Source: Actinomycetota bacterium (GTDB lineage Bacteria > Actinomycetota > Thermoleophilia > Gaiellales > Gaiellaceae). From it: a stretch of 50,744 bases of DNA. Positions 14,031-45,891 of the stretch are shown piece after piece. Position 1 is the stretch's first letter. The number at the start of each line of letters is the position of its first letter. Both the position numbers and the translations under genes were made by a program. The stretch covers positions 129,473 to 180,216 of the forward strand of contig PLZU01000063.1 in NCBI GenBank assembly GCA_003152275.1. The letters run 5' to 3'. The notes beneath the pieces are model-generated. The model searched no databases. It was not told where the DNA came from and saw only the letters and a program-made list of their open reading frames with translations.

Positions 14031-14725
14031 TAGCTCTTTACGCCTCTCAGCACGATGGTCGGCAGCGGCATGACGCCTTCGACGACGCGGTCTCCGAGCA
14101 GCTCTCGCACCCGTGCGGCGTCCTCGCCCACGCACTCGACGCGGGCGAGCCACGGCTCGATCTCGAGCGGCCGCTCCAGGTAGCGCTCGGCCGCAAGCTC
14201 GAGGCCGGCGAGCTCGAAGAAGCTGTGCCACTCGGGCTGCGAGTAGTTGCGCACGTGACTCGGGTCGCGCACGCGGTCGGCCGCTTCCGAGGACTCGCTG
14301 ACGAACGTGTTGTCGCAGATCACGACGCGGTGTTTCGCGACGCGAGCCATCTCCTTCACCGCGGCGATCACGTCGGCGAAGTGATGCGCGGCGAGCCGGC
14401 AGACGACTGCGTCGAAGCTGCCGTCGGCAAAGGGAAGATCCTCCGCGGTCGCAGTCGTGTCGGCCTGCATGCCAGGCGCCGGATCGACCGTGACGACCGT
14501 TGCGCCGGCCTCGCGCAAGCGACGCGCGACATGACCGCCGCCCGTTGCGACGTCGAGGACGGTCACCCCAGGCCCAGGCTCGCACCACTCGACGACGAGA
14601 TCGAGATCCTCGCCCGCGGCATGGATAGGGCTCTGCCGGTACTGCTCGGCGCGATCGCTCCAGAGGTCGCTTCCCGCTCCGGCGCCTCCGCTCTTTGCCG
14701 GCTCAGTCGAGCCTACGCCGGTCAT
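14030..14725 (-). CDS. SAM-dependent methyltransferase inserted between sucC and sucD
   Basis: 231-residue class I methyltransferase. SAM motif I is VLDVATGGGHVARRL, with the acidic residue in TVVTVDPAPGM, then DLPFADGSFDAVVCRLAAHHF, the UbiE/Methyltransf_11 pattern. Substrate unknown. The ATG at 14725 overlaps the sucC stop (ATGA), and the stop overlaps the sucD start. Residues 2 to about 17 (TGVGSTEPAKSGGAGAG) do not belong to the fold: they are encoded by a repeat that also occurs beside the HAD gene at 45.2-45.9 kb. The domain proper starts around SDLWSDRAEQY. An extra gene in a conserved pair suggests acquisition. Confidence 0.88.
   Translation of the reverse strand: MTGVGSTEPAKSGGAGAGSDLWSDRAEQYRQSPIHAAGEDLDLVVEWCEPGPGVTVLDVATGGGHVARRLREAGATVVTVDPAPGMQADTTATAEDLPFADGSFDAVVCRLAAHHFADVIAAVKEMARVAKHRVVICDNTFVSESSEAADRVRDPSHVRNYSQPEWHSFFELAGLELAAERYLERPLEIEPWLARVECVGEDAARVRELLGDRVVEGVMPLPTIVLRGVKS
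14671..14721 (-). repeat. Junction repeat copy A (short form)
   Basis: On the minus strand it begins just after the sucC stop with GGCGTAGGCTCGACTGAG and ends GCCGGAGCGGGAA. It shares CGTAGGCTYGAC, AGCGGAGGCG and GCCGGAGCGGGRA with copies at 45187-45253 and 45824-45888, but lacks the internal 15 bases that form a hairpin in those. It is read in frame as the N-terminal extension of the methyltransferase. Confidence 0.75.
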
Positions 14726-15867
14726 CTCGCCAGCTCCACTGCGCGCTTCGCGCCGTCGAGCATCGTCGCCTCGGGATAGATGTTCGGCTTGCCTGCGTCG
14801 GCCAGGATTTTTCGGCCTTCCTGGGCGTTCGTGCCGTCGAGGCGCACGACGATCGGATACGTCGACATGTCGAGCCGCTCGAGCGCTTCGAGAATTCCGC
14901 GCGCGACCTCGTCGCAACGGGTGATGCCGCCGAAGATGTTGAAGAAGATCGACTTCACCTGCGGATCGCGCGTGATCACTTCGAGCGCGTCGACGACGCC
15001 CTGCGCGTTGCCGCCGCCGCCGAGGTCGCAGAAGTTCGCCGGCTTGCCGCCGACGTGCGCGACAACGTCGACTGTCGACATCGAGAGTCCTGCGCCGTTG
15101 CCACAGATGCCGACGTCACCGTCGAGCTTCACGTACGTCACGCCTTTCTCGCGTGCGAACGCCTCGAGCGGGTCGGCTGCAGCGGTGTCGCGCATCTCGG
15201 AGACGTCGGGGTGCCGGAAGAGCGCGTTGTCGTCGACGGTGAACTTCGAGTCGAGCGCTTTCACCTCGCCGTCGGGCGTCACGATCAGCGGGTTGATCTC
15301 GCAGAGCATCGCGTCGAAATCGACGAAGGCCTTGTAGAGCTTCTCGATGATTGACGCGATCTGCTTCTGCTCGCTCGCGTCCTCGACGCGCCCTCCATAG
15401 ATCAGCCGGCGCGCGATCCAGGGCTGGAAGCCCTCGGACGAGTCGACGTGAAGACGGATCAGCGCATCCGGGTTCTCCTCCGCGACCTGCTCGATCTCGA
15501 CGCCGCCTTGCGTCGTGAACATGAAGAGCGGCTTCTTCTCGCCACGGTCGAACGTGATCGAGAGGTAGTACTCCTTCGCGATGTCGGAGGCCTTCTCGAT
15601 CCAGAGCTTGCGGACGATGTGGCCGCGGATGTCGAGCCCGAGGATGTCGCGCGCCTTTTGCTCGGCGTCTGCGGGATCCTCGGCGAGCTTCACGCCGCCT
15701 GCCTTGCCGCGGCCTCCGGTGAGCACCTGCGCTTTGACGACGACCGGACCGCCAAGCGAGGACGCTGCGGCGCGGGCCTCCTCCGGCGAGACGGCGAGGC
15801 GGCCGTCGGAGACGGGGATCCCGACGCGGCGGAAGAGCTCCTTGCCCTGGTACTCGTAAAGATCCAC
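14722..15867 (-). CDS. sucC: Succinyl-CoA synthetase beta subunit (ADP/GDP-forming)
   Basis: 381 residues, ATP-grasp N-terminus beginning MDLYEYQGKELFRRVGIPV, with VVVKAQVLTGGRGKAGGVKLA for nucleotide binding, CEINPLIVTPDGEVKALDSK for metal, and the C-terminal ligase domain FNIFGGITRCDEVARGI and RLDGTNAQEGRKIL. Partner of SucD. ADP versus GDP use cannot be settled by eye. First gene of the sucC-methyltransferase-sucD operon; 47 bases separate it from the divergent small membrane gene at 15915. Confidence 0.95.
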   Translation of the reverse strand: MDLYEYQGKELFRRVGIPVSDGRLAVSPEEARAAASSLGGPVVVKAQVLTGGRGKAGGVKLAEDPADAEQKARDILGLDIRGHIVRKLWIEKASDIAKEYYLSITFDRGEKKPLFMFTTQGGVEIEQVAEENPDALIRLHVDSSEGFQPWIARRLIYGGRVEDASEQKQIASIIEKLYKAFVDFDAMLCEINPLIVTPDGEVKALDSKFTVDDNALFRHPDVSEMRDTAAADPLEAFAREKGVTYVKLDGDVGICGNGAGLSMSTVDVVAHVGGKPANFCDLGGGGNAQGVVDALEVITRDPQVKSIFFNIFGGITRCDEVARGILEALERLDMSTYPIVVRLDGTNAQEGRKILADAGKPNIYPEATMLDGAKRAVELAR

Positions 15868-15914
15868 GGCGGCGGACTCTAACGATCGGCGCCTTGCGTG
15901 CCGATTACTGCGTC

Positions 15915-16079
15915 ATGGGACGTTCAGTGATCGGCCTCTGCGGAGGATTCGGCAGCGTCGTCGGCGGCTACATGCCAGTGCTCTGGGGCGCGAGCTCGTT
16001 TTCGATGATGTCGTTTCTGTTCGGCGCGATCGGTGCCATCGTCGGCATCTGGGCCGGCATCCGCATCGCCGAGCTTTAG
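15915..16079 (+). CDS. 54-residue glycine-rich membrane peptide
   Basis: Almost wholly hydrophobic: segments VIGLCGGFGSVVGGYMPVLWG and FLFGAIGAIVGIWAGIRIAEL form two helices with GxxxG spacing, a pattern that favours helix packing or oligomers. Divergent from sucC. ATG at 15915 chosen over an upstream in-frame start at 15894, whose extra residues (MRADYCV) are not hydrophobic. Function unknown. The stop is followed at once by a GGGGTCAGACCCC palindrome. Confidence 0.6.
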   Translation: MGRSVIGLCGGFGSVVGGYMPVLWGASSFSMMSFLFGAIGAIVGIWAGIRIAEL

Positions 16080-16091
16080 GGGTCAGACCCC
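16079..16091. repeat. Palindrome GGGGTC-A-GACCCC
   Basis: Member of a dispersed family with a GTC-W-GAC core, also at 36696-36725, 43992-44004 and 50078-50113. It lies right after the stop of the small membrane gene and before the ABC transporter genes. Typical of extragenic palindromic repeats; no poly-T follows, so a terminator role is unlikely. Confidence 0.6.
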
Positions 16092-16118
16092 GCTTGAGCT
16101 CTAGCTACAGTCGCGCCG

Positions 16119-17084
16119 ATGGACGCGATCGTTGCCGAAGACCTCCGCAAGCACTACAAGGACATTCAGGCGCTCGACGGCGTCTCGTTCTCCGTGCGCG
16201 ACGGCGAGGTGTTTGGACTGCTCGGCCCGAACGGGGCCGGCAAGTCAACGGCCGTGCGCACGCTCACGACGCTGACGCGGCCCGACTCCGGCCGCGCGAT
16301 CGTCGCGGGTGAAGACGTCATCCGCCACCCGAACCGCGTGCGCCGTTCGATCGGCTATGTCGCACAGGACTCCGGCGTCGACTGGGAGGCCACCGGGCGC
16401 GAGAACCTCCTGCTCCAGGGCCGGATCCACGGCATGGCGGGTGCGCCGCTGCGTGCTCGCGTCGACGAACTGCTCGAGCTCGTCGGCCTGCGCGAGGCGG
16501 CCGACCGCATCGCGCGCAACTACTCCGGCGGGATGAAGCGGCGGCTCGACATCGCGATCGGCCTCGTCCACCGGCCGCGCGTGCTCTTCCTCGACGAGCC
16601 GACGACCGGGCTCGACCCGGAAGCGCGGGTCGCGCTATGGGACGAGGTCGAGCGGCTCGCGCAGCAGGAGAGCCTCACGATCCTGCTCACGACCCACTAT
16701 CTCGAAGAGGCCGACCGGCTCGCGGAGCGCGTTGCCATCATGAGCCGCGGCAAGATCGTCGTCGAAGGCACACCGGGGGAGCTGAAGGCGAACCTGCGCG
16801 GCGAGCTCGTAACCGTGGAGCTCGGTGACGCGAACGGTCGCATCGAGGACGCCGCGGAGATCGTGCGTTCGATCGCCGGTGCGACCGAGGTTGGCGTCGA
16901 TGGGCGGCTCGTGCGCACACGCGTGCCGAACGGCGCGCAGGCGATCCCGACGATCCTCTCGGCACTCGACAGCCGCGGCTTCCAGGTCGAGTCGGTCACG
17001 ACTGCGCGTCCGTCGCTCGACGATGTCTATCTCCACTACACGGGACGCGACTTCGCGACCGAAGACGCGGCGGGCAAGGGCTGA
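16119..17084 (+). CDS. ABC transporter ATP-binding protein, DrrA-like
   Basis: 321 residues. Walker A GPNGAGKST, Q-loop near GYVAQDSGVDWEATGRENL, signature YSGGMKRRLDIA, Walker B VLFLDEPTTGLDPEA, H-loop TTHYLEEA. The C-terminal about 100 residues (from GELKANLRGELVTV) form the extra domain seen in DrrA-type drug/lipid exporters. Partner of the ABC-2 permease that starts one base before its stop ends. Likely exports a hydrophobic compound, antibiotic or lipid; the substrate is not readable. Confidence 0.9.
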   Translation: MDAIVAEDLRKHYKDIQALDGVSFSVRDGEVFGLLGPNGAGKSTAVRTLTTLTRPDSGRAIVAGEDVIRHPNRVRRSIGYVAQDSGVDWEATGRENLLLQGRIHGMAGAPLRARVDELLELVGLREAADRIARNYSGGMKRRLDIAIGLVHRPRVLFLDEPTTGLDPEARVALWDEVERLAQQESLTILLTTHYLEEADRLAERVAIMSRGKIVVEGTPGELKANLRGELVTVELGDANGRIEDAAEIVRSIAGATEVGVDGRLVRTRVPNGAQAIPTILSALDSRGFQVESVTTARPSLDDVYLHYTGRDFATEDAAGKG

Positions 17085-17854
17085 TGCAGCTCCTGCGCCA
17101 AACGGGCTGGATGATCGTGCGCCAGCTGCGCAACTTGATGCGCGAGCCGATCTGGATCGCGCTGATGGTGATTCAGCCGCTGATCTGGCTGCTGCTCTAC
17201 GGGCAACTCTTCTCGCGGGTCGGAGCTCTGCGTGGAGGCGCGTCGAGCTACATCGAGTTTCTGACGCCGGGGATCATTTGCATGAACGCGTTCTTCGGCG
17301 GCAGCTGGTCGGGCATGGCGATGATCGCCGACCTCGACAGGCACGTGATCGACCGCTTCCTCGCCGCGCCGGCCTCCCGGTTCGCCCTCATCCTGTCGCA
17401 GGTCGTGCGCGCGGGCATCATCGCGGTGATTCAGGCGCTGATCCTGCTTCTGCTCGGGCTCGTTCTGGGCGTGCGCATCCACGGCGGCGCGCTCGGCTGG
17501 CTCGTCGTGTTCGCCGCAGCTGCACTCCTCGCAATGGCGTTCGCGGGCCTGTCACACGGGATCGCCCTCACCGTGCGCCGCGAGGCGTCGATGATCGCCG
17601 CCGCGAACTTCGTCGGCCTGCCGCTGATGTTCCTCTCGGCGATCCTGATCCCGCCAACACAGATGCCGCATTGGATCGCCCAGATCTCGCGGTTCAACCC
17701 CGTCAACTGGGGTGTGCATGCGGCCCGCAACGCAATCGTCAACGGCGGTCACTGGGGCTCGACCGGCCTCTATCTCCTGTTGCTGCTCGCAGCGGTCGCC
17801 GCCACGTCATTGTTCGCGACGTGGTCCTTTCGCGCCTACCAGCGCTCTATCTGA
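17084..17854 (+). CDS. ABC-2 type permease, DrrB-like
   Basis: 256 residues, six membrane helices in the ABC-2 pattern. Begins with an amphipathic RQTGWMIVRQLRNLMREP segment; has the conserved FLTPGIICMNAFFGGSW and, before helix 6, AQISRFNPVNWGVHAARN, which closely matches the F-NP-Y/W motif of DrrB exporters. The ATG overlaps the ATPase stop by one base. Forms the exporter with the preceding gene. Its 3' end overlaps the M23 peptidase gene by 34 bases, suggesting a three-gene operon. Confidence 0.9.
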   Translation: MQLLRQTGWMIVRQLRNLMREPIWIALMVIQPLIWLLLYGQLFSRVGALRGGASSYIEFLTPGIICMNAFFGGSWSGMAMIADLDRHVIDRFLAAPASRFALILSQVVRAGIIAVIQALILLLLGLVLGVRIHGGALGWLVVFAAAALLAMAFAGLSHGIALTVRREASMIAAANFVGLPLMFLSAILIPPTQMPHWIAQISRFNPVNWGVHAARNAIVNGGHWGSTGLYLLLLLAAVAATSLFATWSFRAYQRSI

Positions 17855-18726
17855 CGCTCGCGGCCGCGCTCGCCCTGCCGGCGGCGGCGGGAGCGACGTA
17901 CGGCTGGCCGCTCAAGCCGTTCGACCAGCAGCATGCGGTCCGGAGCTTCTTCGACAACCCGCGCGCGGAAGGCGTCGGCGCTACGTCGTTCCACTTCGGC
18001 ATCGACATTTCCGCGCCTGACGGAACGCCGGTTTACGCGGTCGCCAACGGTGTCGCGCGACTTCAGCCCGATGCGGTCGCGCTCGTCGCGGATGCGGGCG
18101 ACCGCACATTCTCGTACTGGCACGTCAATCCGACGATCCCGGATCTCGCGCACGTCGCGATCGGAGACGAGATCGCCACGATCAAGCAGGGCTTCGGGCA
18201 CGTGCACTTCACAGAGATCCACGGCGGCCGCTACGTCAACCCGCTTCGTCCCGGCGGGATCGCGCCGTACGTCGATTCGACCTCGCCGACCGTGGTGTCG
18301 CTCTTCGCAGCGGTCGGGACGCACAAGGTCGCGCTCGACTCGCTGCACGGCACGGTCGATCTCCTCGTCGACACGTACGACACGCCCCCGCCACCGCTGC
18401 CGGCCCCGCCCTGGAACCTCACGCGGGTCGCGCCAGCGCTCATCCGCTGGCGGCTCGTGCCCGAAGGCGCGACCTCGGCGCACTGGCGAACGGCGATCGA
18501 CTTTCGGTCGTTCCTCGCTCCGAAGGAGAAATTCTCCTCCGTCTACGCACCCTGGACGACGCTCAATGAGCCGGGTCGTCCCGCGCGGCTCGTGTACTAC
18601 CTCGCGCAGCGCTGGGACTCCTCGCGCCCACCCGACGGGCGCTACCGCCTGCAGGTCGCGGTGTTCGACTCCCAGGGGAACAGCGCCCGCGCGGGACTCT
18701 GGGTGACGATCGCCAACAGCCGCTAG
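17821..18726 (+). CDS. Secreted M23-family (LytM-like) peptidase
   Basis: 301 residues. Signal peptide ALYLTLAAALALPAAAGA (about 8-25). The M23 zinc site is recognisable: HFGIDISAPDGTPVYA (HxGxD) and GHVHFTE (HxH). Family members are metallo-endopeptidases that cut peptidoglycan cross-links or act as cell-wall hydrolase regulators. The C-terminal half (from about 150) contains a beta-rich stretch ending DGRYRLQVAVFDSQGN, like an Ig-type accessory domain. The GTG at 17821, inside the permease gene, is the only start that yields the full signal peptide. Convergent with accA, overlapping it by 4 bases. Confidence 0.8.
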   Translation: MVLSRLPALYLTLAAALALPAAAGATYGWPLKPFDQQHAVRSFFDNPRAEGVGATSFHFGIDISAPDGTPVYAVANGVARLQPDAVALVADAGDRTFSYWHVNPTIPDLAHVAIGDEIATIKQGFGHVHFTEIHGGRYVNPLRPGGIAPYVDSTSPTVVSLFAAVGTHKVALDSLHGTVDLLVDTYDTPPPPLPAPPWNLTRVAPALIRWRLVPEGATSAHWRTAIDFRSFLAPKEKFSSVYAPWTTLNEPGRPARLVYYLAQRWDSSRPPDGRYRLQVAVFDSQGNSARAGLWVTIANSR

Positions 18727-20471
18727 GGCTCGACTTCGAGCACGCAGATGACCTGTCCCGCTCCTACCGGCTCGCCGGTCGCGACGGAGAGCTGCGCGAC
18801 GACCCCGCCGTGCGATGCACGTACCTCGTTCTCCATCTTCATCGCCTCGACGACGCAGAGCACCTGGCCGGTTTCGACCGTGTCGCCGTCGGCGACGTCC
18901 ACGGACAGCACCGTCCCCTGCATGGGCGAGACGATCGCGTCGCTCCCGGAGGCGCCGCCGCCCCGCACGCGCTCGTTGCGCTTGCGCGCGAGCTCCCGCC
19001 ACGGCTGCTCGGGCTCGAGCGTGCGCACCTCGAAGCGGCGGCCGTCGACCTCGACCGTGCGTAGCCGCTCAGTCGTGCGGCCGTTCGCCGACGTGACCGC
19101 GGTTGGAGGCTCGAGCTCGACAACGCGCGCCGCCAGCTCCTCCGACTCGACGAGCCCGTGGCACGTCTCGCCGCGTACGAAGCATTCGTGCTCGAGCAGC
19201 GCCTTGTGAAAGCCGATCAGGCTCTTCGGGCCGCCGATCACGAACTCGTCGAGCGCGCGGAGCATGCGCCTGCGCGCGTGCTCGCGATCGACGCCGTGCA
19301 CGATCAGCTTCGCCATCAGCGGGTCGTACTCGCCGGAGATCTCGCTTCCGGCGGCGACGCCCGAGTCGACGCGCACACCGGGTCCGGACGGCTCGCGATA
19401 CGCAGTCACAAGACCGGGCGACGGCAGGAAACCGTGTGTCGCGTCCTCGGCATTGATGCGGCACTCGATCGCATGCCCGCGCAACTCCACCTGCGCCTGA
19501 GTGATCGACAGCGGCTCGCCGAGCGCGATCCGGATCTGCTCACGAACAAGATCGAGCCCGGTCACCTCTTCCGTGATCGTGTGCTCGACCTGGATGCGCG
19601 TGTTCATCTCCATGAAGAAGTACTGCCCGTCTTGCGTGAGCAGCCCTTCGATCGTCCCGGCTGAGCGGTAGCCGGCGGCCCGGGCTGCGTCGACACCGAT
19701 CTGACCGATGCGGGCGCGCAACTCCGCGCCGACCGCGGGCGACGGTGTCTCCTCGACGAGTTTCTGGTGGCGGCGCTGGATCGTGCAGTCGCGCTCGCCG
19801 AGGTGGATGACGTTGCCGTGCGCGTCGGCGAGCACCTGCACCTCGACATGGCGCGGGTCGACGATCAGCTTCTCGACGTACACGTCAGGGCTCGCGAAGT
19901 ACGACTGCCCCTGGCGCTGCGCTGCCGCAAATGCGCGCTCAGCGGCGGCTGGCGCGTGCACCTCCTCCATGCCCTTGCCGCCGCCTCCCGCCGCAGACTT
20001 GATCAGCAGTGGATACCCGAGCTCGTCGCCAAGCGCGAGCAGCTCCTCGACGGAGCCAACGGGATCGGTGGTGCCGGGAATGATCGGAACGCCCGCAGCC
20101 TGCATCGCCTGGCGGGCGCGCGTCTTCGAGCCCATCAACTCGATCGCCTCGGGCGGCGGCCCGATCCAGGTGAGCCCGGCGGCCTCGACGGCTCGCGCGA
20201 ACGCCGCGTTCTCGGCGAGGAAGCCGTAGCCCGGATGCACCGCGCCCGCTCCGGCCCTGACCGCGGTTTCAACAAGCCGCTCGATCTTGAGGTAGCTCTC
20301 CGCCGCCGCCGGCGGGCCGATCAGGTACGCCTCGTCGGCGTAGGAGACGTGCAGCGCGGCGCGATCGGCCTCCGAATAGACGGCGACCGACCCGAGCCCG
20401 AGCTCGCGGAGGGTGCGGAAAACGCGGATCGCGATCTCTCCGCGGTTGGCGACCAGAACCTTGTCGAACAT
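18723..20471 (-). CDS. accA: Acyl-CoA carboxylase alpha subunit (biotin carboxylase + BCCP)
   Basis: 582 residues. Biotin carboxylase domain from MFDKVLVANRGEIAIRVFRTL with ATP-grasp motif KSAAGGGGKGM, HPGYGFLAEN, and EMNTRIQVEHTITEEVTG at the active site; BCCP domain at the C-terminus with the biotin Lys in VVEAMKMENEV. This fused arrangement is that of actinobacterial AccA/PccA, which carboxylates acetyl-, propionyl- or longer acyl-CoA with a beta subunit; the accD-type gene at 28121-29686 is the likely partner. Substrate class depends on that partner. 25 bases separate it from divergent pgsA. Confidence 0.92.
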   Translation of the reverse strand: MFDKVLVANRGEIAIRVFRTLRELGLGSVAVYSEADRAALHVSYADEAYLIGPPAAAESYLKIERLVETAVRAGAGAVHPGYGFLAENAAFARAVEAAGLTWIGPPPEAIELMGSKTRARQAMQAAGVPIIPGTTDPVGSVEELLALGDELGYPLLIKSAAGGGGKGMEEVHAPAAAERAFAAAQRQGQSYFASPDVYVEKLIVDPRHVEVQVLADAHGNVIHLGERDCTIQRRHQKLVEETPSPAVGAELRARIGQIGVDAARAAGYRSAGTIEGLLTQDGQYFFMEMNTRIQVEHTITEEVTGLDLVREQIRIALGEPLSITQAQVELRGHAIECRINAEDATHGFLPSPGLVTAYREPSGPGVRVDSGVAAGSEISGEYDPLMAKLIVHGVDREHARRRMLRALDEFVIGGPKSLIGFHKALLEHECFVRGETCHGLVESEELAARVVELEPPTAVTSANGRTTERLRTVEVDGRRFEVRTLEPEQPWRELARKRNERVRGGGASGSDAIVSPMQGTVLSVDVADGDTVETGQVLCVVEAMKMENEVRASHGGVVAQLSVATGEPVGAGQVICVLEVEP

Positions 20472-20496
20472 GAGTGGGCCGTATTCTCCCCACTCG

Positions 20497-21042
20497 ATGT
20501 CCCCAGCCGACCAGTTGACCGTCGCGCGTGCCCTGTCGGTCCCGATCGTGGTCGTTCTCTACGCCTGGGACTTCCACGCTCACGCGTACTGGGCGACCGC
20601 CGTCTTCTGCCTTGCGATGACCACCGACTTCTTCGACGGAAGGCTCGCGCGCAGGCACGGACGCTCGTCACCCCTCGGCTCGCTGCTCGACCCGATCGCG
20701 GACAAGGTGCTCGTGCTCGCCACGATGGTGATGCTCGTCGGCCTGCACGTCGTCCCCTCGTGGATGATCGCCACGATTGTCGTGCGCGAAGTGCTGATCA
20801 CCGGTCTGCGGCAGGCGGCAATCGAGCGCGGCATCGTGATCGCGGCGCGGGACCTCGGCAAGCTCAAGACGTGGGCGCAGGCGATCGCGGCCGGGCTCGC
20901 GGGCTTCGCGGCCGCGGGCGCATGGACCGACCGCGTCGGGTGGTGGGCGATGCTCGTGGCCGTCGTTTTGACGTGCGTGTCGGGTCTCGACTACGCCCGG
21001 AGCGCGCCGGCGCTCTTCAAACGGCGCGGGGTAGCCACGTGA
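20497..21042 (+). CDS. pgsA: CDP-diacylglycerol-glycerol-3-phosphate phosphatidyltransferase
   Basis: 181 residues, about five membrane helices. The CDP-alcohol phosphatidyltransferase motif D-x2-D-G-x2-A-R-x8-G-x3-D-x3-D is complete in DFFDGRLARRHG followed by GSLLDPIADKV. Makes phosphatidylglycerol phosphate, the precursor of phosphatidylglycerol and cardiolipin. Begins SPADQLTVARALSVPIVVVL, as in PgsA. ATG at 20497 chosen; an upstream in-frame start would overlap accA. The head-group acceptor is inferred from the PgsA-like start and REVLITGLRQAA segment. Confidence 0.88.
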   Translation: MSPADQLTVARALSVPIVVVLYAWDFHAHAYWATAVFCLAMTTDFFDGRLARRHGRSSPLGSLLDPIADKVLVLATMVMLVGLHVVPSWMIATIVVREVLITGLRQAAIERGIVIAARDLGKLKTWAQAIAAGLAGFAAAGAWTDRVGWWAMLVAVVLTCVSGLDYARSAPALFKRRGVAT

Positions 21043-21043
21043 A

Positions 21044-21226
21044 CTAGACCGGGGCGAGCCCGTGCGCGTTGCACCAGTCGGTGAACCGCGCCCAGCCGCG
21101 CAGGTACTCCAGCAGCTGGGAGAAGCCCTCCTCGACCTCGGCTCGGACGGCCCAGTGGCAGTGGCCGCAGTAGCCGAGCTCGTCGACTGCCGGAGCCTCG
21201 CGGCAGCGGATGCAGTCGTCGAACAT
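21044..21226 (-). CDS. 60-residue zinc-ribbon protein
   Basis: Two CxxC knuckles, CIRC (5-8) and CGHC (20-23), make a compact zinc ribbon, followed by an acidic helical tail (VRAEVEEGFSQLLEYLRGW). Such domains bind nucleic acid or protein partners; no specific family is evident. It ends one base beyond the convergent pgsA stop and lies 30 bases downstream of a 47-residue gene on the same strand. Confidence 0.65.
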   Translation of the reverse strand: MFDDCIRCREAPAVDELGYCGHCHWAVRAEVEEGFSQLLEYLRGWARFTDWCNAHGLAPV

Positions 21227-21256
21227 GTGGGGGAAACGGCCGGGCGGCCGCCCGAG

Positions 21257-21400: not shown

Positions 21401-21446
21401 TAGAAAGCCTAAAGTCGCCAGGGCCCGGCGTCGATGTGAACTACCG

Positions 21447-39140: not shown

Positions 39141-39145
39141 CGCGC

Positions 39146-40153
39146 CTAGCCTAGATCAGTACGCGCGAGCAGATCCTCGCGCGGTAGCGCGGCGATCACG
39201 GCCCAGAGCTCGGGCCCGCGCTCGCGCCCGGTGAGCGCGAGTCGTACCGCCTTCAGGTCGCCACCAACAGCCTTGAGCTCGCGCACGACTCCGCGCGCAT
39301 CGACGCCACCCTCGACGAGCTCGCGGAAGCGCTGCAGGGTCTCGGGCGCGTCGACCTCGACGCGTTCCGGCTCGAGCACCTGCTTTGCGTACTCGCGCGC
39401 CTCGCGTAGGTCACGCGCACCGCGAAGCACAGGCGCGACCGACACCGGAACGCCAACGCGCTCAGCGAGCTCTTCGTCCGAGAGCGCCGCAAGGGCCTCG
39501 ATCGACAACCGCCGCAGGCGAGAGAGGTCGAGATGGACGTCGTGCTTCGGCAGGCCCAGCTCAACGAGATACGCGTGCACAGCCTCCGGCGGGATCCCGG
39601 CCTCGCGCAGATCTGCGAGCGACGACGCTCCGTGGCGTTTCGAGAGCTTCGATCCGTCCTCGCCGAGCAACAGCCCGTGGTGCACGTATTCCGGCGGCTC
39701 CGCCCCGAGTGCGCGGATGAGCGCTGCCTGCAGCTCCGCATTCGCGCGATGGTCGGAGCCGCGGATCACATGCGTGATCTCGAGATCCATGTCGTCGACC
39801 GCTGAGGCGAGCTGATACGTAGGCGTCCCGTCCGGACGCAGGAGTGTCGTCTGGCCGAAGCGGAGCGCTCCCTCCGCGTCGGGCTCGCCGACCAGGTGGG
39901 CCGCCTCCCGATGGCGGACGTGGCGCTCGCTCTGCCGGACCGGGCCTTCGTCCCACCGGACGCCAAGCCATTCGAGGTCGGACACGATTGCCTCGGCTCC
40001 GCCCTCGACGTTGCGTGCCGGATCCGTGTCGTCGATCCGAAGCAGGAAGGCGCCGCCGTGCTCGTCAGCGAAGCTGCGATTCGCGACCGCGCTCAGAGCG
40101 CCGCCGAGGTGCAGCGATCCGGTTGGACTAGGTGCGAAGCGCACGCGAACCAC
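39146..40153 (-). CDS. gltX: Glutamyl-tRNA synthetase, compact form
   Basis: 335 residues against about 470 in most bacteria. HIGH-type RFAPSPTGSLHLGGALSA, IDDTDPARNVEGGAEAI, GTPTYQLASAVDDMDLEITHVIRGSDH and KLSKRHGASSL are all present, so the Rossmann core is complete. Missing: about 65 residues of the connective domain that follows SERHVRHREAAHL (including the Cys-rich CxC region), and part of the anticodon domain, where LDLSRLRRLSIEAL follows the core closely. It keeps a C-terminal helical domain, unlike GluQ-RS, and stands in the gltX position before cysS. GTG start. Confidence 0.85.
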   Translation of the reverse strand: MVRVRFAPSPTGSLHLGGALSAVANRSFADEHGGAFLLRIDDTDPARNVEGGAEAIVSDLEWLGVRWDEGPVRQSERHVRHREAAHLVGEPDAEGALRFGQTTLLRPDGTPTYQLASAVDDMDLEITHVIRGSDHRANAELQAALIRALGAEPPEYVHHGLLLGEDGSKLSKRHGASSLADLREAGIPPEAVHAYLVELGLPKHDVHLDLSRLRRLSIEALAALSDEELAERVGVPVSVAPVLRGARDLREAREYAKQVLEPERVEVDAPETLQRFRELVEGGVDARGVVRELKAVGGDLKAVRLALTGRERGPELWAVIAALPREDLLARTDLG

Positions 40154-40165
40154 GTACGGGCAACG

Positions 40166-40660
40166 CTACGCGACGTGGAGGCCGTCGAGCACGATCTCGG
40201 GGTATCGGGCGGCCGTCGGGACGAGCATCATCACGTCCTCCGCGGTGACGTCCCGGCGAAGCGCGCCTGCGCGCTGCGCGCGCTGCACGAGCTGCTCGAC
40301 GGCGCGGCCGAGCTCGCCCTTCTCCGGCGTGCCCGCGCAGCGCTCGAGACCTTCGATCAGCGCGAGGTTCTCGGCGTAGAGCAAGGAGACGTGCCGAAAG
40401 AACCCGGCGAACCCCTCCCACGCATCTGGCTCGTCGCGTGCGGCCAGCGCGAGTTGGGTGAGCTCGCGGATGCGCTCGTTGAGCACCGCGATGACGAGAT
40501 CGTCCTTGCTCGGGAAATTGCGAAACACCGTGCCGTGCCCGACACCCGCGCGCCGGGCGATCTCGTCGACGCTGACGTCCAGCCCTTGCTCCGCGAAGCA
40601 CTCGCCCGCCACGTCGAGCAGGCGGTCGAGATTGCGCTGCGCATCGGCGCGGAGCGTCAT
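40166..40660 (-). CDS. TetR-family repressor of the adjacent efflux gene
   Basis: 164 residues. N-terminal helix-turn-helix VDEIARRAGVGHGTVFRNFPSKDDLV (about 31-56); the ligand domain is helical (residues 65-160) with a short C-terminus. The ATG overlaps the stop of the MFS gene (ATGA), so both are one operon. A 10-4-10 inverted repeat immediately upstream of the MFS start (42099-42122) is a strong candidate for its operator, implying autoregulation and drug-induced efflux. Confidence 0.9.
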   Translation of the reverse strand: MTLRADAQRNLDRLLDVAGECFAEQGLDVSVDEIARRAGVGHGTVFRNFPSKDDLVIAVLNERIRELTQLALAARDEPDAWEGFAGFFRHVSLLYAENLALIEGLERCAGTPEKGELGRAVEQLVQRAQRAGALRRDVTAEDVMMLVPTAARYPEIVLDGLHVA

Positions 40661-42084
40661 CCGCCGACCGGCACGACGTCCGCCTGGACCACAGCCTGGA
40701 TCCGCTCGACGTCGCGACGGCGCAGCAGCACGATCAGCAGCACGAGCGCGGCGAGCACGAAGCCTGCCCCGCCCGCGAAGGCCCAGTGGAAGCCGTGCAC
40801 GAGCTCTGCCTTCGTGGTGCCGGGCGAACGGCTGGCCGCGAGCGTACTCAGGACAGCGAGCCCCAAGGCGCCGCCGATCTGCTGCGACGTGTTGAAGAGG
40901 CCGGACGCGAGACCCTGATCAGAATCCTCGAGCCCTGTCGTTGCCACGAGCGTCAGCGGCACGAACACCGCGCCCATGCCGAGCGAGGTGAGGAGGATCG
41001 AAGGCATGACGTCGGCGACGTAGGAGCCGTGCACCGGGATGCGCGCGAGCAGCGCCAATCCGACCGCCGTGACGATCATCCCGACCACGGCGACGGGGCG
41101 CACGCCGATCTTCGGCGCGAAGTGCGACGCGAGACCCGCTGAGATCATGATCCCGGCGGTGAACGGCAGGAACGCGAGGCCGGCCTTCAGCGGACCGTAG
41201 TCGAGCACCTTCTGGAGGTACAGCGAGTTGAAGAAGAACATCGCGAAGAGGCCCGACGCGACGAGGAACATCACGACGTTCGCCGCCGTTAGTGAGCGCA
41301 CACGAAAGATGCTGAGACGGACGAGGGGCGCAGTTGCGCGCAGCTCGATCAGCACGAACGCCGTAAGCAGGATTGCAGCGCCGGCGAATGTGCTGAGCGT
41401 CAGTGCTGACGTCCAGCCATCGCTCTGCGCCTTCACGATCGCGTAGACGAGCGTCATGAGGCCGCCGGTGGCGGTGACCGCGCCGGCGACGTCGAAGCTG
41501 CGCTCGGCGTGCTCGTCGATCGACTCCGGAATCAGACGGAGTGACAGTACGAACGCGCCGATGCCGATCGGCACGTTGATGAAGAAGATCCACGGCCACG
41601 AGAACGCCTCGGTCAGGACGCCGCCGAGCACGAGGCCGACCGCCGAGCCGCCGGAGGCGATCGCGGCCCAGACGCCGAGCGCCTTGCCGCGCTCCTTGCC
41701 CTCCGAGAAGGTCGTGCTGATGATCGCGAGCGCGGCCGGCGAGATGAACGCTGCGCCGAGACCCTGGAGCGCTCGCGTGCTGATCAGCCAGGTCGAGCTC
41801 GTCGCGAGGCCGTTCAGCAGGGATGCGACGGTGAAGACGACGACGCCGGCGAGGAAGAGCCGCTTGCGGCCGAGCAGGTCGCCTGCGCGGCCGCCGAGCA
41901 GGAGGAAGCCGCCGAAGACGAGCGCGTACGCATTGACGATCCACTGCAGGTTGGCCTCGCTGAGCCCGAGATCCTTCTGGATCGAGGGGAGCGCAACGTT
42001 CACGACCGTCGCGTCGAGAATGACCATGAACTGCGCGAGGCAGACGAGAACGAGGATGACCCAGGGGTTCGTCGTGTGGCGCAT
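40657..42084 (-). CDS. MFS multidrug exporter, DHA2 (14-helix) type
   Basis: 475 residues, 14 predicted helices. Opens NPWVILVLVCLAQFMVILDATVVNVALPSI, the DHA2 family signature (motif D1, as in EmrB/QacA), followed by motif A-like LGGRAGDLLGRKRLF and motif C GGSAVGLVLGGVLT. Proton-driven export of drugs or cations. The ATG at 42084 has GGAG about 4 bases upstream. First gene of an operon with the TetR regulator, and separated from the beta-helix remnant by the operator. Confidence 0.92.
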   Translation of the reverse strand: MRHTTNPWVILVLVCLAQFMVILDATVVNVALPSIQKDLGLSEANLQWIVNAYALVFGGFLLLGGRAGDLLGRKRLFLAGVVVFTVASLLNGLATSSTWLISTRALQGLGAAFISPAALAIISTTFSEGKERGKALGVWAAIASGGSAVGLVLGGVLTEAFSWPWIFFINVPIGIGAFVLSLRLIPESIDEHAERSFDVAGAVTATGGLMTLVYAIVKAQSDGWTSALTLSTFAGAAILLTAFVLIELRATAPLVRLSIFRVRSLTAANVVMFLVASGLFAMFFFNSLYLQKVLDYGPLKAGLAFLPFTAGIMISAGLASHFAPKIGVRPVAVVGMIVTAVGLALLARIPVHGSYVADVMPSILLTSLGMGAVFVPLTLVATTGLEDSDQGLASGLFNTSQQIGGALGLAVLSTLAASRSPGTTKAELVHGFHWAFAGGAGFVLAALVLLIVLLRRRDVERIQAVVQADVVPVGG

Positions 42085-42098
42085 GGAGCTCCGATCGG

Positions 42099-42122
42099 TA
42101 AGCGGACTAGCCAGTCCGCTTA
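42099..42122. promoter_or_regulatory. TetR-type operator, 10-4-10 inverted repeat
   Basis: TAAGCGGACT-AGCC-AGTCCGCTTA, perfect over both 10-base arms, 14 bases upstream of the MFS exporter ATG. Size and position are those of a TetR-family operator. Confidence 0.75.
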
Positions 42123-42157
42123 GGGTAGCCAATGCCGGCACCCCTGCGTCGACGTGA

Positions 42158-42187
42158 AGAGAGGGCGGCCCGTGAGCCGCCCTCTCT
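42158..42187 (-). terminator. Strong 12-base-pair hairpin after the beta-helix remnant
   Basis: AGAGAGGGCGGC (42158-42169) pairs perfectly with GCCGCCCTCTCT (42176-42187) around a 6-base loop. It lies 23 bases past the stop of the minus-strand remnant at 42211. There is no T-run on either side, so it may be a terminator of the T-less kind seen in actinobacteria, or a transcript-stabilising hairpin. Confidence 0.5.
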
Positions 42188-42210
42188 GGTCGTGCGCGTG
42201 AAAGCTAGGA

Positions 42211-42462
42211 CTACTTGTTGTTGTTGATGTGGTTCGGGCCGAGCGGGTCGATTGCGGTGGCGAATGTTCCGCTGTCGCAGTCGCTGGTCGCATAGCCGTC
42301 ACCGCTGATCTTGTTGTTGACGACGTGGTCGTGGTTGCCATCGCCGGCGATGCCGGCTTGGTAGCCGCAGGTCGCGCTCGAGCCGGTGAGGTTCGTGAGG
42401 CCGTCGGTCTTCGAGATCGTGTTGTTCACGACCGAGTTATTGGTCGGCGTGAGCGTATTCCG
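42211..42462 (-). pseudogene. 3' remnant of a secreted beta-helix-type gene
   Basis: About 83 residues with Asn-rich turns, NTLTPTNNSVVNNTISK, DHVVNNKISGDGYATSD and a final LGPNHINNNK, typical of right-handed parallel beta-helix repeats. No signal peptide or start is present: the sequence simply begins next to the divergent mutY start. The 5' part is gone, so it is a broken gene end with its hairpin still in place. Lower in GC than the flanks. The remainder may have been replaced when the mutY block moved in. Confidence 0.6.
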
Positions 42463-42492
42463 ATCTTCCGCGGCTCCTCTAGGCTCGGCGGT

Positions 42493-43209
42493 GTGGAGGA
42501 GCAGCTTTCGGTCTGGTTCAGCCAAAACGGGCGCGATTTGCCCTGGCGCCGGACACGCGATCCCTACGCAATCCTGGTCTCCGAGGTCATGGCCCAACAG
42601 ACGCAGGTCGATCGCGTGGTGCCGCGCTTTGAGCGCTGGCTCGAGCGGTGGCCGACGGTCGAGACGCTGGCAGAGGCCTCACCCGCCGACGTGATCCGCG
42701 AGTGGCAGGGGCTCGGGTACAACCGCCGCGCGCTCGGCCTGCACCGCGCAGCCCAGCAGGTCGCGGCGCACGGCTGGCCAAGTGATCTGACGGAGCTGCC
42801 CGGCGTCGGGCGCTACACCGCCGATGCCGTCGCGTGCTTCGCACTCGGCCGCGCGGTGCTGCCCGTCGACGTGAACGTGCGTCGCGTGCAGGAGCGCACC
42901 GGCCACGCTTTCACGGCGGCGGCTGCACAGGCGCTGATGGATCTGGGCGCGACCGTCTGCGTTGCTCGCATTCCGCGCTGCGACATCTGCCCGCTCGCCG
43001 AGGGGTGCCCGTCGCGCGGCAGCCGTTACGAGCCGCTGCGCAAGCAGGGGCCGTTCGAGGGCTCGTTCCGGCAGCGCCGGGCGGCCACGCTCCGCCTCGT
43101 CGCGGACGCGGAGCAGCCCGTCGGCGACCTCGATCCGGACGCGGTCGCGTCGCTTGCGCGAGACGGGCTCGTGCTCGTTGCGGACGGCACCGTGTCGCTA
43201 CCCGGCTAG
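42493..43209 (+). CDS. mutY: A/G-specific adenine glycosylase, short MutY
   Basis: 238 residues. HhH-GPD core: WFSQNGRDLPWRRTRDPYAILVSEVMAQQTQV (catalytic Glu in SEVMAQQT), LPGVGRYTADAVACFALG (helix-hairpin-helix), VDVNVRRV (catalytic Asp), and a [4Fe-4S] site C-x6-C-x2-C-x5-C in CVARIPRCDICPLAEGC. Removes A mispaired with 8-oxoG. The C-terminal Nudix-like 8-oxoG recognition domain of classical MutY is missing; instead a short winged-helix-like tail (RQRRAATLRLVADA) follows. GTG start at 42493. Convergent with nothing; a membrane gene follows 4 bases later. Confidence 0.88.
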   Translation: MEEQLSVWFSQNGRDLPWRRTRDPYAILVSEVMAQQTQVDRVVPRFERWLERWPTVETLAEASPADVIREWQGLGYNRRALGLHRAAQQVAAHGWPSDLTELPGVGRYTADAVACFALGRAVLPVDVNVRRVQERTGHAFTAAAAQALMDLGATVCVARIPRCDICPLAEGCPSRGSRYEPLRKQGPFEGSFRQRRAATLRLVADAEQPVGDLDPDAVASLARDGLVLVADGTVSLPG

Positions 43210-43213
43210 TACG

Positions 43214-43639
43214 ATGGCCGCGATGCTCGTCGCCGACATCGTCACCCTGCTGATTCCCGTCTGGATCCTGCTCGGCCTGATCCTGCTGCTTGGCGTCTTC
43301 GCGCTCCTCGGCCGGATCCAGAACGGCCGCTATCTGCGACCGGTCATCAACCTGATCGCCAAGGTGCCGCTCCTCAACCGGTGGATGCAAAAGGCGTCGA
43401 ACGCGGCGCTCGAGCGGTCGAACCCGGAGCTCGCGAGCGCAATGAAGAAGATGAAGCGGACCGGCGCATTGCGCGATCCGATGAAAGCGCAGGCGGCGAT
43501 GTCACAGCTCACGCGCGATGAGCGGCGCGCGCTCCTGGACATGCAGGAGCAGCAAGGGCTCGGCGTCGCACCCGAGGCGACGAACCGGCAGATGCGCCGG
43601 CGCCTCGAGAAAGCCCAGAAGAGCGCCCGGAGGCGCTAA
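43214..43639 (+). CDS. Single-pass membrane protein with basic helical tail
   Basis: 141 residues. One N-terminal membrane helix (about 8-34, VTLLIPVWILLGLILLLGVFALLG), then a charged helical domain ending RQMRRRLEKAQKSARRR. The tail contains AMKKMKRTGALRDPMKAQAAMSQLTRDERRALLDMQ, helical and amphipathic. No known family. Starts 4 bases after mutY, so probably coexpressed. Stop overlaps the convergent gene at 43636 by 4 bases. Confidence 0.7.
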   Translation: MAAMLVADIVTLLIPVWILLGLILLLGVFALLGRIQNGRYLRPVINLIAKVPLLNRWMQKASNAALERSNPELASAMKKMKRTGALRDPMKAQAAMSQLTRDERRALLDMQEQQGLGVAPEATNRQMRRRLEKAQKSARRR

Positions 43640-43950
43640 GCCGCTTCCGCGAACCGTTCCGCATACAGCGCGAGCCACATCTGAATCAGGCGTTCACGGT
43701 CGAGCGGCCCCAGCTCCTGGCCGGCCTTGCGCTCGTGGATTGCGAGCTCGTCCTCGACCATCTCCTGCGTGAACGTCTCGTCCCACGCAAGACCTCGCAC
43801 CCAGTTCTCGCACGCGCGGACGACGTCGACGCGGCCCTTCCCCGGCGAGGTCACCACGGCGGTGCTCGCGCGCCGCGCGAGCTCCTCGGTCAGCCGAGAG
43901 ATCTCGAACCGCAGGTCATCCGGCGTCCACTCTTCGAGCGGCTTGGCCAT
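43636..43950 (-). CDS. 104-residue soluble protein of unknown function
   Basis: Acidic, helical. Begins AKPLEEWTPDDLRFEISRLTEEL; centre ENWVRGLAWDETFTQEMVEDE; end RLIQMWLALYAERFAEAA. No metal, nucleotide or membrane motif. The pattern suggests a small all-helical protein-protein module. It stands alone between two convergent/divergent blocks, with a dispersed palindrome upstream at 43992. Confidence 0.65.
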   Translation of the reverse strand: MAKPLEEWTPDDLRFEISRLTEELARRASTAVVTSPGKGRVDVVRACENWVRGLAWDETFTQEMVEDELAIHERKAGQELGPLDRERLIQMWLALYAERFAEAA

Positions 43951-43991
43951 GTCACAACGGTACGGGGTGGACCGGACGTTCCGGGAAAAGC

Positions 43992-44004
43992 GGTGTCAGA
44001 CACC
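43992..44004. repeat. Palindrome GGTGTC-A-GACACC
   Basis: Single copy of the dispersed GTC-W-GAC palindrome, identical to 36713-36725, in the 65-base gap between the 104-residue gene and the GNAT-like gene. Confidence 0.65.
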
Positions 44005-44015
44005 AGACGCGCGGA

Positions 44016-44711
44016 TTAGACCCCATGCCTCATCCAGACGTTTGGCTCGACATAGGTTCCGCGGCCGCCGTCGAAATGCACCGGCACGAGCGCGCCCGGA
44101 ACGACATAGTCGCCGTCCTCCGGGAACTGGAGGCCCGTCCACTCCTCCCACTCATCGCGCGAGGCCGTCACCGTCATCGACTTCGGCGCAGGCGAGAGGA
44201 TCTCGGCCCCGAGGCGCTCGTGCGTGCGGATCCACGGGTCGTAATGGAACCCGTCTTCGCGGCGCCAGCGGACGTAGCTCTCCATCGGCGTGAGCGGATA
44301 GCGCTCCTTCCACGTCGGCCGCACGGGTGCGATCAGGCAATCGAGACCGTGTGCGGTCGCGAGACCCCTCATGCGCTCCAAAATCTCCGACGCAACCCCG
44401 GTGCCGCGATACGACGGCAGGACCCCGGCGACGACGGCGCAAAGCGTTGTCGGCTCGCCGACGACGCCGTTGCTCATCGCCCAGTCGAGGCCTCGCTGCT
44501 CGGGAACGCCGTCCCACTTGACGGGCAGGGTGCACGCGTACCCGATCGTCTCCTTGTCGTCAACGACCCAGAGCTGGAAGTCTGCGTAGACGTCGTAGAG
44601 TCTCGGCCAGAACGTCGAGATCACCTGGTCGTGGTCCATGAACTCCGGCCAGAGGCTCGGCAGCTTGCCGCTCAGGTTGCGCTCAGCGTGGGTGTACATG
44701 CGCAGCTTCAT
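44016..44711 (-). CDS. GNAT-fold protein downstream of ispF
   Basis: 231 residues. Central acetyl-CoA-type segment VVAGVLPSYRGTGVASEILERMRGLA fits the GNAT beta4-alpha3 region (R-G-T-G-V). The flanks are long: N-terminal KLRMYTHAERNLSGKLPSLWPEFMDHD and C-terminal PWIRTHERLGAEILSPAPKSMTVT. Similar proteins are annotated only as putative acetyltransferases. The ATG overlaps the ispF stop (ATGA), so it is translationally coupled to the isoprenoid genes, without an obvious chemical link. Confidence 0.75.
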   Translation of the reverse strand: MKLRMYTHAERNLSGKLPSLWPEFMDHDQVISTFWPRLYDVYADFQLWVVDDKETIGYACTLPVKWDGVPEQRGLDWAMSNGVVGEPTTLCAVVAGVLPSYRGTGVASEILERMRGLATAHGLDCLIAPVRPTWKERYPLTPMESYVRWRREDGFHYDPWIRTHERLGAEILSPAPKSMTVTASRDEWEEWTGLQFPEDGDYVVPGALVPVHFDGGRGTYVEPNVWMRHGV

Positions 44712-45187
44712 CGCTGCAACAATGCGACGGCCTGCGCGGCAAGCCCCTCACCGCGGCCGGTGAAGCCGAGCGTGTCCGTCGTCGTTGCGTGTACGGCAAC
44801 ACGGTCCACGTCGACACCCAGAGCGCCGGCGAGCTTCGCGCGCATCGCATCTCGATGCGGAGCGAGTCGCGGCTCTTCGCCGATCAGCACGACGTCCGCG
44901 TTCGCGAGCTCCCAGCCCGCCTCGCGCACGCGGCGCCACGCCTCGCGCAGCAGGACGAGCGAGTCTGCTCCCTCAAGCGACGGGTCACCGGACGGGAACA
45001 GCGCGCCGATGTCCTCGAGACCGGCGGCGCCGAGTACGGCGTCCGTGAGCGCGTGCGCGAGCACGTCGCCGTCGGAGTGACCCGCGAGCCCGCGCGGGTG
45101 GTCGATGCGCACGCCACCGAGTACGAGCGGCACGCCGTCCTGCAGCGCATGCGCGTCGAAGCCGGTGCCGACCCGGTATTCGCTCAT
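44708..45187 (-). CDS. ispF: 2-C-methyl-D-erythritol 2,4-cyclodiphosphate synthase
   Basis: 159 residues. GTGFDAHAL with the Asp-x-His zinc ligands, GLAGHSDGDVLAHALTDAVLGAAGLEDIGALFP with the second zinc His and the FPP-binding segment, and ATTTDTLGFTGRGEG. Forms MEcPP in the MEP isoprenoid pathway. The ATG at 45187 is preceded by GGAGCGGGA supplied by junction repeat copy B, and overlaps the HAD gene stop (AATGAG). Normally adjacent to ispD; here a HAD gene lies between. Confidence 0.94.
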   Translation of the reverse strand: MSEYRVGTGFDAHALQDGVPLVLGGVRIDHPRGLAGHSDGDVLAHALTDAVLGAAGLEDIGALFPSGDPSLEGADSLVLLREAWRRVREAGWELANADVVLIGEEPRLAPHRDAMRAKLAGALGVDVDRVAVHATTTDTLGFTGRGEGLAAQAVALLQR

Positions 45188-45891
45188 TCCCGCTCCGGCG
45201 TCGGCCAAGCCGCCGCCTCCGCTTCTGGGCCGGCTCCGTCGAGCCTACGCCGGCTGAGCACCTCCGCCAGTTCGTCGAGCGACTCGATCCCCACGTCGGC
45301 CTCCGACGCGTCGTGCAGGACGCCCCACGGCCCGCGGCGTATGTGCACCGCGAACATGCCGGCGCGCTTCGCCGGCAGGACGTCGTTGTCAACGCGGTCG
45401 CCGACGTACGCGATCTCGCCGGCGGGCCGCTCCGCCTCCGCGACGATCCTCTCGAAGAACTCTGGCGACGGCTTCTCGACGCCCCACCGCTCGGATGAGC
45501 CGACAAAGTCGACGTACGGGCGCACGACGTCTTCATTGAGCGCCTGCATGTTCCCGACGGCGCCGACCAGCAGCCCGCGCTCCCGCAGAACGCGCAGGCA
45601 CGGCACGGCGTCGGGATACAGCTGATCCGACGAGAACCCGCCGAATGGCCCGTCGATGCCGAGCCACTCAAACGCCTGCCGATGCGACTCGCCGCGCTCG
45701 ATCGCTGCCCCGACGAGCGCCATCAGCGTGAAGCGCGGCACGCCGTATACGTCCGCGATGCGCTCCCACGCGCGCGTCTCGTCGACGAGCGTCTCGCCGA
45801 CGTCGAACACGACCGCAGTCACCTTCCCCGCTCCGGCGCCGGCCGAGCCGGCGCCTCCGCTACTGGTGACCTCCGTCAAGCCTACGTTCAC
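45184..45891 (-). CDS. HAD-family phosphatase inserted between ispD and ispF
   Basis: 235 residues as a GTG start at 45891 overlapping the ispD stop (GTGA). Motif I VVFDVGETLVDETRAW (the second Asp is replaced by Glu: DVGET, unusual), motif II VGAVGNM, motif III Lys in GVEKPSPEFF, motif IV YVGDRVDNDV. The first 23 and last about 20 residues are low-complexity Gly/Ala/Glu stretches coded by two repeat copies. A GTG at 45822 preceded by GGAG and GGGGAAGG would give a protein starting directly at the fold and is equally plausible. The substrate is unknown. Confidence 0.85.
   Translation of the reverse strand: MNVGLTEVTSSGGAGSAGAGAGKVTAVVFDVGETLVDETRAWERIADVYGVPRFTLMALVGAAIERGESHRQAFEWLGIDGPFGGFSSDQLYPDAVPCLRVLRERGLLVGAVGNMQALNEDVVRPYVDFVGSSERWGVEKPSPEFFERIVAEAERPAGEIAYVGDRVDNDVLPAKRAGMFAVHIRRGPWGVLHDASEADVGIESLDELAEVLSRRRLDGAGPEAEAAAWPTPERE
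45187..45253 (-). repeat. Junction repeat copy B
   Basis: 67 bases reading, on the minus strand, from CCGGCGTAGGCTCGACGGAG to GCCGGAGCGGGAA. Encodes the last about 22 residues of the HAD protein and ends on the ispF start codon, giving it a GGAG 5 bases upstream. Shares about four fifths of its bases with copy C by eye. Confidence 0.75.
45824..45888 (-). repeat. Junction repeat copy C
   Basis: 65 bases, minus-strand sense CGTAGGCTTGACGGAGGTCA... to GCCGGAGCGGGGAA, starting at the ispD stop codon. Contains a perfect hairpin GGCGCCGGC-TCG-GCCGGCGCC, degraded in copy B and deleted in copy A. Read in frame as the HAD N-terminus. Confidence 0.75.

Follow-up and report, generated by a model that had tools for sequence, protein, structure and literature searches.

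A dispersed two-hairpin repeat of Gaiellaceae genomes as a likely mobile element and predicted translational relay on stop/start overlaps

We analyzed a 50,744-nt stretch of DNA (here, the window) from an Actinomycetota bacterium of the family Gaiellaceae (contig PLZU01000063.1, positions 129,473 to 180,216) and a short repeat that is present there in three copies. The repeat is a dispersed two-hairpin element of ∼66 to 72 nt that mostly lies at junctions between genes of the same strand. We infer both mobility and translational coupling, and at a probability of about 0.7 we conclude that the element is likely a non-autonomous mobile repeat and a predicted translational relay on NTGA, the overlap of a TGA stop with an NTG start. 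As predicted from the reading frames, a ribosome finishing the upstream gene would restart on the overlapping NTG and read a short relay open reading frame (ORF) in one of two open frames, depending on the insertion. The relay would end at a second NTGA, where the downstream gene would start, aided by the element's GGAG. Where another frame fits, the outcome would be an N-terminal extension, a C-terminal extension ending in NTGA, or a stop at the element's TAG.

From 5' to 3', in the direction of the neighboring gene, the element begins with a 5-nt left arm and a conserved 16-nt loop (CGTAGGCTYGACGGAG). There follow a 5-nt right arm, complementary to the left one, a GGAG-rich spacer (type CAAGGAGCGGAGG), then a 9-bp hairpin and finally a tail (CGGAGCGGG) containing GGAG. 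Copies came from several genomes and from public contigs, with identical copies collapsed into one. Orthologues or paralogues are among them, and these are not independent. The starting set consisted of exact-loop copies, so the invariance of the loop is partly a selection effect, and copies found by a covariance model with 1 to 2 loop changes were kept out of the counts. A recognizable tail was present in 157 of 216 loop-bearing places, which include single matches in unrelated genomes that we read as chance. Stem statistics used 138 unique copies with a core span of 53 to 62 nt (a range fixed by the filter), gene context used 134 copies with enough flank, and the duplication test used 128 copies after removal of tandems.

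Gene junctions and the predicted relay

Based on codon-score gene calls, 85 of the 134 copies lie at a same-strand junction, versus 1.0% of 4,000 random points and 3.0% of 4,000 random 60-nt spans, which bears out the clustering at such junctions proposed in an earlier note on the window. The remaining copies adjoin opposite-strand genes (16), are antisense (7), lie before a start only (6), within a gene (6), or after a stop only (2), or have an unclear (9) or other (3) context. Orientation is also biased, with 102 of 109 copies that have co-directional neighbors in sense. Junction location was found for 46 of 56 copies with TGA in the arm and for 39 of 78 with other arms.

The relay architecture, in which the left NTG overlaps the upstream TGA and the right TGA overlaps the downstream NTG, occurs in 41 of 102 same-strand copies (CTG accepted as a start). 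Their relay ORFs have 23 codons (27 copies), 24 codons (12 copies), 26 codons (1 copy), or 28 codons (1 copy), and in all but one of the 42 testable cases (41/42; binomial P = 8e-19) the left NTG and the right NTGA share the same phase. The span of the element and the offset of the start trade off against each other, for example, as 60 + 3 and 61 + 2. Two reading frames are in use among the relays, VGSTE in 30 and RRLDG in 11, and therefore phase rather than peptide seems to be kept. For the same reason we rejected a conserved peptide; the relay peptide is probably irrelevant.

The other same-strand copies combine with their neighbors in several ways. The downstream gene is extended at its N terminus from the left NTGA in 16 of the 102, and the upstream gene is extended at its C terminus to the right NTGA in 11 and without such an overlap in 13 more. 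In 7 copies the upstream gene stops at the element's TAG and a start follows to the right, and in 1 it stops there without such a start. The rest comprise 5 copies with a separate stop and start, 5 inside one ORF, and 3 with a left NTGA and no NTGA-ending relay. One copy (L082) was classed as within a gene in the context set and as a C-terminal extension in the relay set.

The earlier note had also suggested that the 3' GGAG supplies a ribosome site. As a prediction, this idea holds, because in 56 of 89 same-strand copies the tail GGAG precedes the downstream start by 5 to 8 nt, and because GGAG is retained better at junctions (intact in 78 of 85 junction copies versus 36 of 49 others; Fisher P = 0.006).

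The same bias toward junctions could arise with an ordinary miniature mobile element that has no translational role, if insertions elsewhere kill genes and a 4-nt NTGA duplication is harmless. This explanation, which we consider somewhat unlikely, would accommodate the less frequent junction location of copies with non-TGA arms, the tolerance of the five copies inside one ORF, and a copy that, together with its orthologue in a second genome, forms an in-frame insert in a conserved protein. It sits less well with relay lengths that vary (69, 72, 78, and 84 nt) and yet stay in phase with a single exception, and with the better retention of the tail GGAG at junctions.

Window copies, distribution, and empty sites

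We built the covariance model (R1) from 96 aligned copies, including copies B and C of the window and not copy A. Sequence and model matches agree with the earlier note on three minus-strand copies and on where they lie. The features of the three copies are as follows.

45827 to 45891, minus strand: copy C, whole element from arm to tail, at the ispD/HAD junction (R1 match 45827-45892, 76.9 bits)
45887 to 45891, minus strand: copy C left arm GTGAA, containing the ispD stop TGA (45888-45890) and an overlapping GTG (from sequence)
45871 to 45886, minus strand: copy C conserved loop CGTAGGCTTGACGGAG (from the alignment of copies)
45835 to 45855, minus strand: copy C second hairpin, 9-bp stem and 3-nt loop (predicted fold and family covariation)
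45831 to 45834, minus strand: copy C tail GGAG, predicted Shine-Dalgarno for the GTG at 45820-45822, with 8 nt between (sequence and spacing statistics)
45189 to 45254, minus strand: copy B, whole element, at the HAD/ispF junction, read as a C-terminal tail of HAD (R1 match 45189-45255, 80.9 bits)
45234 to 45249, minus strand: copy B conserved loop CGTAGGCTCGACGGAG (from the alignment of copies)
45197 to 45217, minus strand: copy B second hairpin, 1 of 9 pairs mismatched, not in the predicted fold of copy B (fold and model match)
45193 to 45196, minus strand: copy B GGAG, ending 5 nt before the ispF ATG (from sequence)
45184 to 45187, minus strand: ATGA just right of copy B, HAD stop TGA overlapping the ispF start ATG (from sequence)
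14722 to 14725, minus strand: ATGA at the left end of copy A, ligase stop TGA overlapping the methyltransferase start ATG (from sequence)
14673 to 14722, minus strand: copy A, without the second hairpin, at the ligase/methyltransferase junction, read as an N-terminal extension (R1 match 14673-14723, 50.9 bits)
14702 to 14717, minus strand: copy A loop CGTAGGCTCGACTGAG, one change from the consensus (sequence and model match)

The neighboring genes encode a succinyl-CoA-ligase-type ATP-grasp protein, a methyltransferase, IspD, an HAD hydrolase, and IspF/YgbB. An ORF from the left-arm GTG of copy C is open across the element into HAD (235 codons), copy B lengthens the HAD protein by RRRLDGAGPEAEAAAWPTPERE and finishes in the ispF-start ATGA, and the frame onward from the ligase/methyltransferase ATGA through copy A reads MTGVGSTEPAKSGGAGAGS. 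Exactly 15 model positions are missing from copy A, in the second hairpin, in agreement with the earlier note, which saw it as the same element after loss of 15 bases. Copies B and C are absent from both aligned congener loci, where, in the case of copy C, GTGA stands once. The next match in the window, on the plus strand at 11519-11605 (19.9 bits, E = 0.011), may be either a chance match or a copy that has decayed.

The repeat is not due to chance: the 3.25-Mb genome of the window (G000, 105 contigs) contains the loop dodecamer CGTAGGCTYGAC 32 times and its reversed control twice. With copy C as the query, blastn gave 22 matches at E < 1e-4, copy C included. The profile scan that the earlier note had called for, extended to 61 genomes (the window's own and related ones), did find further copies: 30 model matches in G000, 25 in G014, 17 in G005, 14 in G002, 13 in G036, and 11 in G001. 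These counts may be low because 84 first-look candidates were scored per genome. At least one match was found in 15 of the 61 genomes.

Across 299 genomes of the class, the exact loop is present in 28, with a maximum of 39 places (G260). All but two of these belong to nine genera of the window's own family (26/28), and the exceptions (G043 and G158) have one place each. Presence is patchy: within a genus, some species have many copies and others have none. At least 112 contig stretches of a public genome set carry the loop; among the matches listed, most are labeled Thermoleophilia or other Actinomycetota, and nearly all of the remaining ones are single, lack arm pairing, and are read as chance. 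One metagenome-assembled genome labeled Burkholderiales contains a full copy (L117), whose arms are TGAG/CTCA and whose right end is relay-like, on a contig that is possibly mis-binned. Spread by phages or plasmids was rejected, as plasmid and phage collections gave no match to the one copy used as a query and nothing credible came from viral contigs: 23 carry the 16-mer, and we read these as chance because the model gives them ≤25.5 bits.

Evidence for mobility comes from sites without the element. We joined the flanks of 29 G000 places, searched them against 16 genomes of the genus, and fetched 60 congener loci. The full element is absent from all 57 of these loci that were aligned (to 21 copies), with 0 to 12 nt in its place. 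At one copy (L039), 5 of 6 congeners have a single GTATGAGC, and G000 has two, one on each side of the element. At the G002 locus of another copy, L042, we observed ATGAGCGTCGGCTCGACGG and then GGCGGGGAAG plus ATGA ∼28 nt past the aligned junction (L277); a possible reading is a shortened copy or remnant that keeps only the start of the loop and the tail, with an ATGA overlap on either side. In G000, a stretch without the element (contig C104, 65609-65799) matches the flanks of the gene that carries L047 at 83% identity; it is either a paralogue or part of a foreign contig in this assembly.

Two species have the element as an in-frame insert in a ThpR-like gene, and the other aligned congeners lack it there. 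Before the loop, the filled gene reads TGG-AACGCG and the empty one TGG-CGN-GAACGC or similar, so that the left arm could be mostly host sequence after a small deletion or could be element-borne. The two inserts (L082 and L087, in G014 and G006) agree in their arms and in the few bases that adjoin them on either side, and G001, G005, G009, G011, and G013 lack the insert, with right flanks 85 to 94% identical to that of G014. Any of three explanations would be notable: independent insertion at the same site, exact loss on repeated occasions, or exchange of short tracts.

The earlier note had further proposed a test for short target duplications at the flanks; duplication fits some places and is not general. 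Shared 5-mers at both ends were found in 41 of 157 places (null mean, 23.3; highest of 500 shuffles, 39) and, with tandems removed, in 39 of 128 (null mean, 26.5; highest of 300 shuffles, 39). When copies were split by arm class, shared 4-mers were at the null level, both with TGAG arms (41/51 versus 39.9) and with other arms (29/77 versus 29.8). Accordingly, we dropped target-site duplication as a rule and kept it for some NTGA places. Terminal inverted repeats, which along with target-site duplication mark a classical MITE, were not seen by eye in the alignment of copies.

Elements of the IS200/IS605 group move by a mechanism in which guide and target sequences pair. One could picture the repeat as a palindrome of the repetitive extragenic palindromic (REP) type that is moved by a Y1 transposase (REP-associated tyrosine transposase, RAYT), with the GTAG of the conserved loop as the tag and arm pairing as the guide/target pairing. 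In agreement with this, alternative complementary stems are described for REPs (PMC3733652), and the left-arm letters of L039 and L048 are present in the congeners' empty sites; those of L041, L047, and L057 are absent from the aligned loci, which are too diverged to decide. A Y1_Tnp match occurs in 11 of 13 loop-bearing genomes, but also in 31 of 48 loop-free ones (Fisher P = 0.31). At E = 0.001 there is none in G006 (95% complete, with 8 copies) or G013, and no copy lies within 4 kb around the sole Y1 match of G000. We consider this origin improbable and, lacking an association with the element in presence or proximity, rejected the Y1 transposase as the mobilizer.

Paired stems around the conserved loop

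The first covarying hairpin and the relay ORF are features additional to those of the earlier note. The counts of Watson-Crick pairs at positions 1 to 5 of the first hairpin are 136, 136, 127, 118, and 88 among 138 copies, versus shuffled means of 112, 50, 58, 44, and 46. The stem ends sharply at five pairs, since pairs 6 to 8 are at or below chance. There are 24 distinct 4-nt left arms, and both helices covary, with 118 cells changed on both sides versus 20.7 after shuffling. Arms that vary and yet match probably reflect recognition of a folded single strand (DNA or RNA) by a mobilizing factor, target pairing, or mutational correction of the palindrome.

Predicted RNA folds contain the second hairpin in 5 of 7 copies; copy A has lost it, and copy B takes another fold. 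The outer stem of the first hairpin was predicted in a single RNA fold (1/7; L062) and in none of three DNA folds. Because it is mostly absent from these predictions, the outer stem, if formed, may need a partner or a moment outside what they model.

The related copies L219 and L250 have flanks identical at 181 of 194 and 186 of 200 positions; 3 of their 9 second-hairpin pairs differ on both sides and 1 on one side, with all pairs kept, and the other 49 element positions contain 3 changes. L219, L250, and L071 lie at the same N terminus in three species, and their second-hairpin stems differ yet stay paired. Among 11 aligned pairs of related copies (not independent, some being paralogues of one genome), 8 show higher conservation in the element than in its flanks, of which 4 have nominal P < 0.05 (best, 65/68 versus 300/388; P = 0.0002), which speaks against a plain mobile element. 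The 3 pairs with a less conserved element are in keeping with one; P is 0.047 in one of them, L219/L250. Selection on the fold, copying of palindrome arms, or exchange between copies could each yield this pattern.

Two further kinds of places were observed. Seven (L116, L144, L142, L147, and L157, all in one genome, and L101 and L075) have the loop without the second hairpin, some in tandem at ∼30-nt spacing, and are possibly a smaller relative of the element. Adjacent tandem first hairpins with differing arms occur in G000 on contigs C51 and C77 (L044 and L051) and at L096 and L136.

Strong covariation of both stems and the sense orientation of nearly all copies with co-directional neighbors are also what one would expect of a cis-regulatory operon RNA that was spread by duplication and whose stems were kept by RNA selection. 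The genes at the three junctions of the window are unrelated, however, tandem copies have different arms, and 6 of 7 predicted RNA folds lack the first stem. At the gathering threshold, Rfam matched only a tRNA in the window, and in five copy-bearing loci it gave one match, far below the gathering score and away from the element. Such a regulatory RNA is thus, in our judgment, very improbable.

Several observations count against a mobile relay. The relay architecture is lacking in most same-strand copies (61/102) and in all three copies of the window. In-phase relay lengths could result in part from the fixed length of the element together with NTGA duplication, without selection. The gene calls rest on a home-made codon-usage score trained on 33 long ORFs of the window, not on annotation, and leave the context of 9 of 134 copies unclear. 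Common ATGAG ends may explain the excess of shared 5-mers, the 4-mers show no excess, and the outer first stem is mostly missing from predicted folds. No transposition was observed, and no mobilizer was found.

A bolder and, as we see it, rather unlikely form of the proposal is a frame-agnostic relay transposon on NTGA overlaps, whose arms would be rewritten in concert around the invariant loop via target pairing or palindrome copying. Both neighbors would survive any landing of such a transposon because two frames are open and the third is stopped. No such rewriting step is described for a relay repeat in the passages at hand on mycobacterial interspersed repetitive units (MIRU), REPs, and Rickettsia palindromic elements (RPE) (PMC12548453, PMC2734929, PMC3733652, and PMC10969869).

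If a mobile relay is the right reading, overlapping stop/start codons would be a recurrent safe harbor for mobile DNA in gene-dense genomes. The family also offers natural experiments (the same junction with and without a relay in related species, two frames, and varying yet paired stems) that could test how much coupling owes to the ORF, to the stems, and to the GGAG.

Comparison with known repeats

We found no comparable repeat in the literature on this class, in a search that was thin on subscription journals. The GTAG-tagged REPs are palindromic, have many copies, and show alternative complementary stem residues (PMC3733652), and the present element is like them in these three respects. 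It differs in that its GTAG lies inside the 16-nt loop between covarying arms and is not an unpaired terminal tag, and no link to a Y1 gene was found either around the G000 match or across the 61 genomes.

The earlier note had likened the repeat to the palindromic elements that insert into genes in Rickettsia. RPEs are ∼150 bp long and lie inside genes, whose coding sequence tolerates them and stays open in frame (PMC10969869). The present element is likewise open in frame and tolerated there, but only 5 of 102 same-strand copies (6 of 134 overall) lie inside a gene. Because in-gene insertion is a minority here, MIRU are the better parallel.

MIRU are short dispersed repeats of 40 to 100 bp (PMC2734929) that, according to a 2025 review, appear to be mobile, insert at start codons, carry an internal ORF coupled at −4 nt, and likely have little effect on the gene (PMC12548453). 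The present element resembles them as a dispersed repeat in the same size range, with 30 matches in G000, and in its placement at start codons with −4-type ORF overlaps in 41 of 102 same-strand copies, the coupling being predicted from sequence. Unlike MIRU, it occurs mostly in records labeled Thermoleophilia or other Actinomycetota, among the matches listed. Its two covarying hairpins, conserved 16-nt loop, two frames, and N- and C-terminal extensions are features for which the MIRU descriptions allow no comparison. If our reading is right, preservation of coupling by mobile repeats is not peculiar to mycobacteria. We read the element as a MIRU-like relay element, with MIRU as the closest known kind, likened by architecture and not by descent.

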